Of a DNA stretch of 64,000 nt, positions 10,863-15,228 are shown in pieces. Source of the DNA: Nocardiopsis trehalosi NBRC 14201 (GTDB lineage Bacteria > Actinomycetota > Actinomycetes > Streptosporangiales > Streptosporangiaceae); assembly GCF_001552555.1 (NCBI RefSeq), contig NZ_BCRK01000005.1, positions 1 through 64,000 on the forward strand, in the 5' to 3' direction. Under the pieces are notes generated by a model that had not been told where the DNA came from, searched no databases, and worked only from the letters and a program-made list of their open reading frames with translations. Both the position numbers and the translations under genes were made by a program. The first letter of the stretch is position 1. Every line of letters starts with the position of its first letter.

Positions 10863-12152
10863 TCAGCGCACCTCGATGAACGCCTCGGCCGGGCGCGGCG
10901 GCCGGTCGCGCGGCGGCGCCGCGGCGTGCCCCACCGCCACCGACCCCATGGGCCGCCAGTCGTCCGGCAGCTTCAGGACGCGGCGCACCACATCGGGGCA
11001 GAACATGGTGGACGACACCCACGCCGACCCCAGGCCCTCCATGGCCAGCCCGACCAGCAGGTTCTGCACCCCGGCGCCCATGGCGACGAGGAACATGGAG
11101 CGCTCGGCGTCGGCCCGCCGCTCGTCCGGGTAGGGGTGCGCGCCGTCGGCCACCAGGCACGGCACGACCAGGTACGGGGCGTTGCGCAGCACGTCGCCGC
11201 GGCGGACCCGCTTGGCGATGGAGGACTCGGAGAAGCCGTCGCGGCGCAGGTCGGCCACCCACGCGTCGCGCATGGCGTCGAGCAGCTCGGTGCGGACGTC
11301 GGCGGACTCCACCAGGACGAACCGCCACGGCGTGGTGTGGTGCGGGGCGGGCGCGGTGACCGCCACCGCGACCGCGCGGCGCACCGCCTCGGGGTCGACC
11401 GGGTCGGCGGTGAACTCGCGCACGGTCCGCCGGGCCGGGACGACGTCGCGCGAACCGTAGCGGAACAGGTCCTGGTCGGCGGGGCGCACCAGCGCGGCCG
11501 CCCCGGGCCCGTCGCCGTCGGTGACCAGGCGCCCCAGGCCGCGGACCACCGCCACCGGCACGCCCGACGCCTTGCCCTTGACCAGCTCGCCCGCCGACGC
11601 GATCTCGTCGGCCACCGCGGCCACGGTCACGTCGAGCACGTTGCCGTGGGTGTCGGTGGTGCCGCGCAGGTCGTGCAGCGGGTCGAGGCCCGCGGCGCCG
11701 ATGGCGACGTCCACCTGCCCCGTGCGCCAGGGGCGGCCGAACGTGTCGCTCACCACGACCGCCACCCGCACGCCCGTGCGCTCCCGCAGCGCCGCGCGCA
11801 GCCGGCGCGCCGACGCGTCGGGGTCCTCGGGCAGCAGCAGCACCCGGCCGGGCTCGACGTTGGAGGAGTCGACCCCGGCCGCCGCCATGACCAGCCCGCT
11901 GCGGGTCTGCACGATGCGGGTGCTGCCCCGGCGGGCCACCACCCGGGCGGTCTCGGCGTCGACGGCGGCCTCGCGGTCGCCGACGACGATCCGCCCCTCG
12001 GCCTTGCTGACGATCTTGGACGTGACCACGAGCACGTCGCCGTCGGCGAGGCGGGCGGCGCCGGCGATCAGCGCGGCGAGGTCGTCGCCCGGCCGCACCT
12101 CCGGCAGGCCGGTCACCCCGCGCACGGTCAGTTCCGCCGGTTCCGCGGTCAT
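10863..12152 (-). CDS. fbiB: Coenzyme F420 ligase and dehydro-F420 reductase FbiB
   Basis: Two-domain enzyme (429 aa) of coenzyme F420 biosynthesis. Residues about 1-245 form the CofE-type gamma-glutamyl ligase that adds glutamates to F420-0 ([48 protein letters not shown]). Residues about 250-429 form an FMN-binding nitroreductase-like domain ([53 protein letters not shown]) that in actinobacteria reduces the dehydro-F420-0 made by FbiA. The full two-domain length matches mycobacterial FbiB. The ATG overlaps the fbiA stop by ATGA. This is the last gene of the F420 operon. Confidence 0.94.
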
Positions 12153-13123
12153 CCGCGCCGTCCCTTCAGCTCCAGTGCCAGATCCAGGGCCGCGCGGGCG
12201 AGCGCCGCCGTGGCCTCCGGGTCGCTCATGTACAGGGGTCGGGAGCGCACCTCGACGCCCGCGACCTCGGTGCCGGCGTCGGCGTCGTCGACCAGCCACC
12301 CGTCGAGCAGGTCGGGCCCGTAGTGCTCGGCGACCGCCCGCGCGGTGGTCTCGACCCCGATGGCGGCCAGGCAGGCGTCGGCCATGCCGCGCACCGGCGC
12401 CCCGCCGATGATGGGGGAGACCCCGACCACGGTCGCCGCGGTCAGCGCGTCGCGGATGCCGGGCACGTTGAGGATGGACCCGACGCTGACCACCGGGTTG
12501 GACGGCGGCAGCAGCACGACGTCGGCCGCCGCGATCGCGTCGAGCACACCGGGCGCCGGGGCGGCGTCCTCGGCGCCCACGCCCACGATGGCGCGGGCGG
12601 GCAGCGCGGCGCGGTGCCGCACCCACCACTCCTGGAAGTGGATGGCGCGGGTACCGCCCGCGTCGTCGTCCACCACCACGTGGGTCTCGACCCGGTCGTC
12701 GGTCATGGGCAGCAGCCGGACGCCGGGGCGCCACCGCTCGCACAGCGCCTCGGTGACCGCCGACAGGGGGTAGCCGGCGGCCATCATCTGGGCGCGCACG
12801 ATGTGCGTCGCGACGTCGCGGTCGCCCAGCCCGAACCAGGTGGGGCGCATGCCGTAGGCGGCCAGCTCCTCCTTGACGGTGAAGGTCTCGTCGGCCCGGC
12901 CCCACCCCTGGTCCTCGTTGATCCCGCCGCCCAGCGTGTACATGACGGTGTCCAGATCCGGACAGATCCGCAGGCCGAACAGGGTGATGTCGTCACCGGT
13001 GTTGCCGATGACCGTTATGGTCGGTTCGTTCTCCTGGTGGTCCGCTCCGCTTCCGAGCGCCGCCTGGAGGCCGCGCAGGAAACGGGCGCCACCGATACCG
13101 CCCGCCGGTACGACTATCCGCAT
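12149..13123 (-). CDS. fbiA: Phosphoenolpyruvyl/phospholactyl transferase FbiA (CofD)
   Basis: Transferase (324 aa) that joins the activated three-carbon guanylyl donor to the deazaflavin Fo, giving dehydro-F420-0 in actinobacteria (F420-0 in archaea). CofD motifs are obvious: the N-terminal [14 protein letters not shown], the Fo-binding [31 protein letters not shown], and the phosphate-binding [15 protein letters not shown]. The ATG at 13123 begins MRIVVPAGG as in orthologues. A TATACG -10 hexamer at 13149-13154 on the minus strand would place transcription about 20 nt upstream. It heads the fbiA-fbiB operon and is divergent from the QGY-rich membrane protein gene. Confidence 0.95.
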
Positions 13124-13396
13124 GGGCTCAAGTCTGGCAGGCTGTCCGCGTATATGTGCCGCGCGCCCCGCGCATCCGCGGGGCGGCGGAGCGGTCGTCC
13201 GGCCGGCGGTACCGGCGGCGCCCGCCCGGATCCCGCACGGCACACCGCGCCCGCAGCGGCGGCGCCCCACCGGGCGACCCCTACCGCCCGGCTCCCCCCG
13301 GCCGCGCCGCGCGGCCCGCGCGCGATTCACCCGACCGACCGACGATATGCCAAGCTTCCACCGACGCGACGGCGAAGCAGCGGAGGGGAACCTCTC
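13124..13396. promoter_or_regulatory. Divergent region between fbiA and the QGY-rich membrane protein gene
   Basis: The 273 bp hold no gene. On the minus strand TATACG (13149-13154) is the likely fbiA -10. On the plus strand the strongest signal is GGAGGGGA (13382-13389), the ribosome-binding site that selects the TTG start at 13397. No clear plus-strand promoter is recognised; GATATG near 13344 is the only A/T-rich candidate. Confidence 0.4.
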
Positions 13397-14713
13397 TTGA
13401 ACAACGAAGCACTTGACCGCTTGCGGGTACCCGCCGCCTGGGCGCTGCTCGGCGCCGTTGGCGCGCACATGCTCGGCGGCCTCATCAACGTGTTCGGCAC
13501 CGGCGGTGTCGGCGGCTCCGTCGCCGGCAACTTCTACAGCGACGGGTCGGAGCACTTCTTCAGCCCGGTCATCATCGGGCTGATCCTGGCCGCGGTCGCC
13601 CTGGTCGTCACCGCGCCGCGCAAGTCGTCGGTCAACCTGCAGATCGTGATCATCGCGATGGTGCTGACCGGCCTCGCGGCGCTGCTCGCCGTCGTGACCC
13701 TCATCATGGGCTTCGTCTGGTCCGGCGAGCTGGGCGAGATGGCCACCGGCTTCAGCAACCTGTTCGTCGTGGCCGGGCAGCTGGCCGTCGTCGTCTTCGC
13801 GGGGCTGTTCCTGCTGCGCGTCCTCAACGACCCCGTGCGCGTCCCGCGCTCCGCCCCGCAGTTCGGCCAGCAGGGCTTCGCCCCGCAGACCGGCGCCCAG
13901 CAGTCCTTCGCCCCGCAGACCGGGGCGCAGCAGTCCTTCGCGCCGCAGGCGCAGCAGGGCTACGCCCCCACCGGCGGGCAGCCGGCCTACCCGCAGCAGG
14001 ACTGGTCGGCCCAGCAGGCGCAGGCCGGCTACACCGACCCGGCGCAGCAGGGCCAGGCGGGCTACACCGACCCCGGCCAGCAGGCGCAGCAGGGCTACGC
14101 CGCCGACCAGACCCAGCAGGGCTACCCGGCCGACCAGTCCCAGCAGGGCTACACCCAGCAGCAGGGCTGGCCGCAGGGCCAGGAGGGCTACGCCGCCGGC
14201 ACCGGCCAGGAGGGCTACCAGCAGGGCTACACCGCCACCGGCGGGCAGCAGGGCTACGACTGGCAGCAGCAGGCGCAGCAGCCCCAGCAGGACCAGCAGC
14301 AGTACGACTGGCAGCAGGGCCAGCAGGGCCAGGCCGGCTACACCGACCCGGGCCGGCAGGCGCAGCAGCAGGGCTGGGACCCCTACGCCCAGCAGCAGGG
14401 CCAGCAGCACGGCTACACCACCACCGGCGGGCAGCCGTCGTACGGCCGGCAGTACGACCCGTCGGCCTACGGGACCCCGGCCGGCACCGAGGGCGAGCAG
14501 GGCGGCGACCACCGCCAGGACACGCCCGGCGGGTCCTACTACTCCGACGACCAGCGCGCCGCCGACCCCAACCGGCCGCAGACCGGCCCGCAGTACGGCG
14601 GTCAGTACGGCTCCGGCTACGGCGAGTCCTACGGCTCTGACCAGGGCGGACAGGCCGGAACCGACCCGTCGGCGGGCCAGCAGGGCTGGTACGGCAACGA
14701 CGACCGCCGCTGA
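13397..14713 (+). CDS. Four-TM membrane protein with long Gln/Gly/Tyr-rich repeat tail
   Basis: A 438-aa protein of unknown function. Residues about 10-148 contain four hydrophobic helices (AAWALLGAVGAHML; VIIGLILAAVALVV; IVIIAMVLTGLAAL; FVVAGQLAVVVFAG). From about residue 152 to the end runs a 290-residue low-complexity tail of imperfect QQGYxxx, QAGYTDP and FAPQTGAQ units, extremely rich in Gln, Gly and Tyr and almost free of hydrophobic residues. It is surely disordered and resembles prion-like condensate-forming tails. The TTG start at 13397 is set by GGAGGGGA 7 nt upstream and gives a natural start just before TM1. It lies between fbiA (divergent) and whiB. Homologues near whiB in related actinomycetes would be expected, but the role is unknown. 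Confidence 0.75.
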   Translation: MNNEALDRLRVPAAWALLGAVGAHMLGGLINVFGTGGVGGSVAGNFYSDGSEHFFSPVIIGLILAAVALVVTAPRKSSVNLQIVIIAMVLTGLAALLAVVTLIMGFVWSGELGEMATGFSNLFVVAGQLAVVVFAGLFLLRVLNDPVRVPRSAPQFGQQGFAPQTGAQQSFAPQTGAQQSFAPQAQQGYAPTGGQPAYPQQDWSAQQAQAGYTDPAQQGQAGYTDPGQQAQQGYAADQTQQGYPADQSQQGYTQQQGWPQGQEGYAAGTGQEGYQQGYTATGGQQGYDWQQQAQQPQQDQQQYDWQQGQQGQAGYTDPGRQAQQQGWDPYAQQQGQQHGYTTTGGQPSYGRQYDPSAYGTPAGTEGEQGGDHRQDTPGGSYYSDDQRAADPNRPQTGPQYGGQYGSGYGESYGSDQGGQAGTDPSAGQQGWYGNDDRR

Positions 14714-14754: not shown

Positions 14755-14833
14755 TGCGTGGTAATCCCCTGAACGACCTCAGGTGGACGGCCGTTGGCCG
14801 TTTGTTACATGATATTCAGGGGATTACCACGCA
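14755..14833. repeat. Perfect 19-bp inverted repeat upstream of the whiB promoter
   Basis: TGCGTGGTAATCCCCTGAA (14755-14773) recurs as its exact reverse complement at 14815-14833, separated by 41 nt that include a small ACGGCC/GGCCGT hairpin and an A/T-rich TTGTTACATGATAT. The right arm ends 6 nt before the whiB -35. It could terminate the upstream transcript, but its modest G+C content and distance from the upstream stop (42 nt) also fit a two-site operator for whiB. Confidence 0.7.
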
Positions 14834-14839
14834 GCGCGC

Positions 14840-14869
14840 TTGACGTATCGCGAGCCGCGCGCGTGTAAT
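14840..14869 (+). promoter_or_regulatory. whiB promoter
   Basis: TTGACG (14840-14845) and TGTAAT (14864-14869) are separated by 18 nt, giving a leader of about 65 nt before the whiB ATG. It directly abuts the 19-bp inverted repeat. Confidence 0.6.
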
Positions 14870-14940: not shown

Positions 14941-15228
14941 ATGAGCGAGGTCATCCCGCTGGCGCACGGCGCAGACGAAGATCTGGGCTGGCAGGAGCGT
15001 GCCCTGTGTGCGCAGACCGATCCCGAGGCGTTCTTCCCCGAGAAGGGCGGCTCCACACGGGAGGCGAAGAAGGTCTGCCTGTCATGCGAGGTACGGGCGG
15101 AGTGCCTGGAATACGCGCTGGAGCACGATGAACGCTTCGGCATCTGGGGGGGACTCTCCGAGCGCGAGCGCCGCCGGCTGAAGAAGGCCGTCGGCCAGGA
15201 TTTCGATTTCCTGACCGACATGCTGTAG
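14941..15228 (+). CDS. whiB: Developmental iron-sulfur regulator WhiB
   Basis: Wbl-family protein (95 aa) that binds a [4Fe-4S] cluster and acts with the principal sigma factor. The four cluster cysteines are C23, C46, C49 and C55 (CxnCxxCx5C), followed by the G(V/I)WGG turn as GIWGG (67-71) and the basic ERERRRLKK helix. The region GWQERALCAQTDPEAFFPEKGG is nearly identical to Streptomyces WhiB and mycobacterial WhiB2, regulators of sporulation septation or cell division. The ATG at 14941 is preferred over an in-frame GTG at 14935 because that GTG lies inside the AGGAGGT ribosome-binding site (14930-14936). Neighbourhood with fbiAB and the giant glycosyltransferase is conserved in actinobacteria. 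Confidence 0.96.
   Translation: MSEVIPLAHGADEDLGWQERALCAQTDPEAFFPEKGGSTREAKKVCLSCEVRAECLEYALEHDERFGIWGGLSERERRRLKKAVGQDFDFLTDML

Follow-up and report, generated by a model that had tools for sequence, protein, structure and literature searches.

A membrane protein with a long Gln/Gly/Tyr-rich tail encoded between cofD and whiB in Nocardiopsis trehalosi and its relatives

In the window, that is, the whole analysed stretch of 64,000 nucleotides (positions 1 to 64,000 of contig NZ_BCRK01000005.1 of Nocardiopsis trehalosi NBRC 14201), an open reading frame between an F420 synthesis gene and a whiB gene reads as a small membrane domain followed by a long tail rich in glutamine, glycine and tyrosine. 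This raises the questions of whether such a tail is really made, how it is kept among relatives, and what a membrane protein could use it for. In the open-licence PMC papers searched we found no paper on the tailed membrane protein, which, as far as these searches tell, is apparently undescribed. The features of the locus are collected in Table 1.

Table 1. Features of the locus, with positions in the window and the basis of each call.
Feature	Position	Strand	Basis
cofD/fbiA, 2-phospho-L-lactate transferase (F420 synthesis), divergent neighbour	12149..13123	-	TIGR01819 E 1e-117; ends by eye
Tailed membrane protein, coding sequence	13397..14713	+	intact ORF, 438 aa, TTG start
Head (residues 1-152), four-helix anchor in the membrane, N-in/C-in by prediction	13397..13852	+	AF2, K+R bias, profile
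Tail, residues 153-438, Q/G/A/Y/P-rich, without Cys, disordered, predicted cytosolic	13853..14710	+	composition, pLDDT
C-terminal peptide WYGNDDRR plus stop	14687..14713	+	WY statistics, DNA pattern
whiB upstream element	14755..14869	+	conserved in the ten loci compared; coordinates by eye
whiB, WhiB-like regulator, downstream	14941..15228	+	PF02467 E 1.3e-27; start by eye

Reading frame and distribution of the tailed gene

A Shine-Dalgarno-like GGAGGGG, located by eye at 13382-13388, precedes the TTG start of the coding sequence, and the same start codon was found in all 9 close orthologues read (L002-L009 and L017, the last being from Thermobifida cellulosilytica, which carries a relative). 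The two alternative frames of the tail read as R/P/A/T/S-rich or R/A/G/P-rich sequence. A frame artefact was checked for and excluded, because the Q/G/Y reading is kept among orthologues and the ratio of nonsynonymous to synonymous substitution (dN/dS) of the tail is below 1. The genome of N. trehalosi itself contains 1 match to the head and 1 to the tail. The QGY-tailed protein and its flanking genes, which the initial annotation had described as F420 genes and whiB, are thus confirmed as real.

From the GTDB family of N. trehalosi, 250 genomes were sampled, and a profile of the head matched 214 of them (206 of the 219 good-quality family genomes; 55 of the 68 genera). All rows listed show a single match per genome, apart from G018, which has two. 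The protein is therefore near-universal and mostly single-copy in a large actinomycete family. In a class-wide sample, the head was matched in 32 of 296 genomes, 28 of them within the family. Outside it, homologues adjoin cofD in two genomes of family f39 (G434 and G343), where whiB lies approximately 6.5 kb from cofD, and distant homologues of family f3 (L012 and L013) occupy other loci, on contigs that show neither cofD nor whiB, and have tails of only 61 and 52 aa. Two further weak matches in the class-wide sample (G475 and G409) were rejected as homologues and are probably due to chance, since they have neither cofD nor whiB in their vicinity and carry no QGY tail.

To describe the site, 50 loci were examined in detail, namely that of the window, L069-L111, L116-L120 and L017. 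cofD lies divergently upstream in all of them, and whiB follows downstream in 49, the remaining locus (L117) ending with its contig. For the comparison outside the family, 27 of the 30 cofD loci returned were examined; 2 proved to be family members, and among the 25 left we found neither the head nor a QGY stretch, while whiB was the divergent neighbour of cofD, within the sequence examined and with the tailed gene absent, in 17. Within the family, 14 of the 36 head-negative genomes were checked together with G038, from the same order, and in 15 of 15 cofD and whiB are separated by 182 to 547 bp with no tailed gene between them. Because all 15 lack the whole gene, it was inserted into, or lost from, the cofD/whiB pair with its tail included, and its absence indicates that it is dispensable in at least 14 family genomes. 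A search for tailless orthologues at this site returned none: the tail is long at all cofD/whiB-site loci that were followed to their end, and what the 15 head-negative genomes checked lack is the entire gene, so that a tailless form there was rejected. Head and tail have been gained and lost together. With this clean presence/absence history at one site, the gene-absent genomes provide natural controls.

Membrane head, disordered tail and end peptide

The head of the window protein contains 4 hydrophobic stretches, and its AF2 model is a four-helix bundle of high confidence (pLDDT 94.6), in agreement with the four transmembrane helices named in the initial annotation. The helices of this head contain no charged residue, and the best-conserved stretch of the family, RLR.PAAW, lies close to the N-terminus. 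Lys and Arg are more frequent on the predicted cytosolic sides than outside in 54 of 54 aligned heads, and the tail is therefore predicted to face the cytosol. Of the two sites first suggested for the tail, cytosol or cell surface, this bias upholds the former and speaks against the latter.

The tail of the window protein begins at approximately residue 153 and measures 286 aa (27% Q, 19% G, 11% A, 9% Y and 8% P), close to the approximately 290 QGY-rich residues originally claimed. In the AF2 model, the mean pLDDT of ten-residue blocks is 63 at residues 151-160 and between 33 and 50 in every block beyond, with no secondary structure, which bears out a disordered, prion-like tail. We collected 57 loci and based the statistics of tail ends on 52, leaving out L114 and L115 (chance matches), L016 and L117 (truncated where the stretch or contig ends) and L093 (interrupted by an N-run). 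Composition, aromatic spacing and motifs were counted in 50 tails, with the short tails of L012 and L013 (below 100 aa) also omitted; L016 and L078 represent one genome. L093 was considered as a case of tail loss and rejected, since its frame shifts across the N-run, after which the Q/G/Y reading runs on to a QYRDDDRR end. The 50 tails of at least 100 aa have no Cys, 0.2% Lys and a mean of 8.8% Tyr, and the net charge of 49 is negative; several family tails are P-rich, with Q at only 8-15%. At the cofD/whiB site the tail length varies from 132 to 698 aa with the composition broadly kept (truncated and N-bearing rows aside), and the repeat part has little conserved sequence. Aromatic residues are less clustered than in shuffled sequences in all 50 tails (mean z -2.45, with 32 tails under -2), and such evenly spaced aromatics are typical of sticker-and-spacer sequences, so that the resemblance in composition to condensate-forming domains was also borne out. 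The DNA encoding the window tail contains tandem units of 9-39 bp, and the even spacing may come from duplication of short repeats rather than from selection for stickers.

The extreme C-terminus, overlooked in the initial annotation, carries an end peptide with the consensus W-Y-[RG]-x-[DE]-x-R, represented by WYRDDDRR and WYGSDRRE in other members of the family. WY occurs within the last 20 residues of 38 of the 52 tails, whereas shuffled sequences give 0.93 on average and 5 at most. The other 14 rows fail this strict test, and some of them end in QYRD or IDPTAIYTP instead, while L077, L102, L112, L113, L012 and L013 have none of these ends. In L070, L075, L086 and L111 the terminus is IDPTAIYTP[GN][DE]PR, a motif that is internal in their sisters. 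A DNA pattern comprising the end peptide and the stop codon matched exactly once, with no second copy, in each of the 6 genomes scanned, at the tailed gene in the genome of N. trehalosi and at matching positions in the five others, and its reversed control gave 0 matches in the six genomes.

A proposed cytosol-facing tether and the alternatives to it

We tentatively favour, at somewhat less than an even chance, the idea that the tailed protein is a membrane-anchored, cytosol-facing sticky tether or scaffold. The four-helix head, as modelled, would anchor the protein in the cell membrane, and the disordered tail, with evenly spaced Tyr, some Trp and Phe and a Q/G/A/P spacer, would, as predicted from the head, extend into the cytosol. 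The end peptide would dock one cytosolic partner, the tail aromatics would cluster the anchors through weak attraction between tails, and in many lineages acid-flanked Thr motifs with a hydrophobic residue at +3 could act as sites for Ser/Thr kinases and FHA domains. With the end peptide as bait, the partner should be within reach of a pull-down and, if membrane clustering is true, the family would offer a bacterial system of simple genetics in which to study prion-like scaffolds tethered to a membrane.

One version of the tether or scaffold, contained within it and in our estimation unlikely, is a membrane-bound bacterial condensate scaffold of the FET type, nucleated by the Tyr-containing tail, binding one client through W-Y-x-x-[DE]-x-R and switched by Thr phosphorylation in many genera; such a protein would be specific to Streptosporangiales-type actinomycetes. 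The low-complexity domains of the FET family (FUS, EWSR1 and TAF15) are rich in Q, G, S and Y, with spaced aromatics, few charges and almost no Lys. The tail is like them in composition, without a claim of homology, being Q/G/Y-rich, aromatic-patterned, Lys-poor and disordered, but Ala and Pro partly replace Ser, which makes up only approximately 4-5%. Unlike FET proteins, the tailed protein is bacterial and membrane-tethered and has no RNA-binding domain.

FtsZ combines a conserved folded tubulin-type GTPase core, a disordered linker of variable length and a conserved C-terminal docking peptide. The tailed protein shares this order of a conserved folded part, a variable disordered linker and a conserved C-terminal peptide, as a matter of architecture only: it has a 152-aa four-helix membrane head and no tubulin-type GTPase core, its end peptide is unrelated, and its linker is Tyr/Gln-rich and nearly Lys-free. 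As in the FtsZ linker, the tail could nevertheless be a passive tether, an entropic spacer that lets the end peptide search the cytosol with no self-association. The approximately five-fold range of tail lengths over which the end peptide is kept, and the low conservation of the repeat part, are consistent with this. An inert spacer, however, needs neither the high Tyr content nor aromatics that are less clustered than shuffles in 50 of 50 tails, and we consider a purely passive tail somewhat unlikely.

Short motifs are found in the last 140-150 or so residues of many tails, namely a helix-like stretch (QLAQAYQQA/QAAQDAIQYGW), TPLxxFF, GHPQ, DPTAIY and [DE]xT[LM]R[FV]. Of the 50 tails, 23 have the acid-Thr-x-hydrophobic motif, compared with 2.5 in shuffles (maximum 7). 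The comparisons with shuffles overstate significance because the motifs were defined after the tails had been seen and the rows are related, so that the motifs are to be taken as leads. When Thr was replaced by S, Q or A, 4, 11 and 12 tails matched against 4.5, 11.5 and 8.4 shuffled, which is no enrichment, and the reversed Thr motif matched 7 tails against 2.4 (maximum 8). Judged from their sequence, the Thr motifs could be sites of the Ser/Thr-kinase or FHA kind. The window protein has no Thr motif and, by eye, lacks the helix-like motif of its sisters and has a degenerate TPLxxFF motif; since it has no Thr motif, such motifs are not needed for the basic function of the family. In one clade (L071, L078, L088, L091, L104 and L108), DPRxQQLAQAYQQAxSYQQ-like and GHPQ-like motifs, TLRFDPxxY and IDPTAIYxP follow each other in a common order and are conserved far better than the repeat part; they are possible binding sites for separate partners. 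The P-rich tails of L112 and L113 (family f39) have DPTQAIP and [DE]RTQ[RP]F near the end, which resemble Thr motifs seen in the main family.

These motifs also bear on the proposal that the head works as a transporter, a channel or a regulator and the tail as its regulatory arm, possibly under Ser/Thr-kinase control. The available text of PMC9312465 describes such a precedent in Rv1747 of M. tuberculosis, an ABC transporter whose FHA domains are connected through a disordered linker that undergoes phosphorylation-dependent condensation. Like Rv1747 as described there, the tailed protein is an actinobacterial membrane protein with a disordered cytosolic segment and clustering as the proposed output, but we found no FHA, nucleotide-binding or transporter domain in it, and it has a low-complexity prion-like tail instead. 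A head larger than a single anchor helix and the Thr motifs of 23 tails would suit a regulated transporter, whereas the absence of that motif from the window protein, the uncharged helices of its head and the database searches do not. Pfam found 0 families in the window protein and, at E 0.1, none matching more than 2 of the 54 heads, and NCBIfam gave weak matches only (10.9 bits, the cut-off being 529). Among solved structures, a sequence search returned no relative (best E 0.075) and Foldseek with the head had 0 matches at E <=0.001, while the best VIA-align match, a designed protein (Z 12.4, rmsd 2.7, 115 aligned), falls within the noise that the tool states for helical bundles. Altogether, we regard a transporter or regulator as distinctly unlikely.

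The tandem DNA units and the fast change in length would also be expected if the tail were a functionless repeat expansion tolerated on a small membrane protein. In addition, a chance scan of 864 kb from three genomes found 5 other Q/G/Y/P-rich ORF stretches, of 83-179 aa against 284 for the window. The tailed protein is thus an unusually long, conserved case of a broad actinobacterial habit. The ORFs L178, L189 and L206 are likewise probable membrane proteins, with a hydrophobic segment and a low-complexity extension, but these stretches are shorter and more P-rich than the window tail. Against drift, the dN/dS of the tail (Nei-Gojobori) ranges from 0.04 to 0.86 and stays under 1 in all 46 within-genus pairs (pairs with a head identity <0.60 were skipped, and rows L024, L036, L046 and L047 are incomplete). 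It is comparable with that of the head and indicates that the tail is under in-frame purifying selection. The long tails of all completely read cofD/whiB-site loci, the conserved end peptide and the joint loss of head and tail argue in the same direction, making drift very unlikely.

The whiB leader and the cofD/whiB site

Upstream of whiB, the window contains perfect inverted arms of 19 bp, TGCGTGGTAATCCCCTGAA (14755-14773) and TTCAGGGGATTACCACGCA (14815-14833), which are 41 bp apart and are followed by TTGACG (14840)-N18-TGTAAT (14864). In the ten loci compared, the inverted arms are present in most and the whiB leader is near-identical, with a hairpin of the CCCTCCC/GGGAGGG type. To judge by its sequence, the whole block looks like a paired operator and a conserved 5' leader of whiB. 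Rfam gave no match in this block and, across the region, one match below threshold. Because the promoter-like block is conserved, whiB probably has its own promoter. The available text of PMC4255298 describes whiB/SCO3034 and, as far as it extends, does not mention SCO3035.

The initial annotation had linked the protein to growth or differentiation through its position next to whiB. The adjacency is real, and the constancy of whiB (49 of 50 loci) and cofD (50 of 50) would suit a protein that works together with whiB or with F420 synthesis, for instance one that holds WhiB at the membrane. As the cofD/whiB pair also exists without the tailed gene and whiB has its own conserved leader, however, adjacency is weak evidence of shared function and hence of a developmental role. 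The distance of whiB from cofD in family f39 and the absence of both genes from the homologue contigs of family f3 likewise oppose such a partnership, which we hold to be highly improbable. A surface or wall-facing assembly or adhesion protein, the other site proposed at first, would draw on the fact that Q/G/Y-rich sequences can be adhesive, but we give it next to no credence since the Lys and Arg bias puts the two ends on the inner side in all 54 heads.

In three genomes of family f20 (L121, L123 and L124; 7.9-9.7 Mb), the gap between cofD and whiB measures approximately 1.2-1.35 kb and holds a minus-strand ORF containing NSDSDLQIAGDILEVPHLL. This ORF, which we take to be cysteine-dioxygenase-like, appears to be a further insertion into this site that is specific to a lineage.
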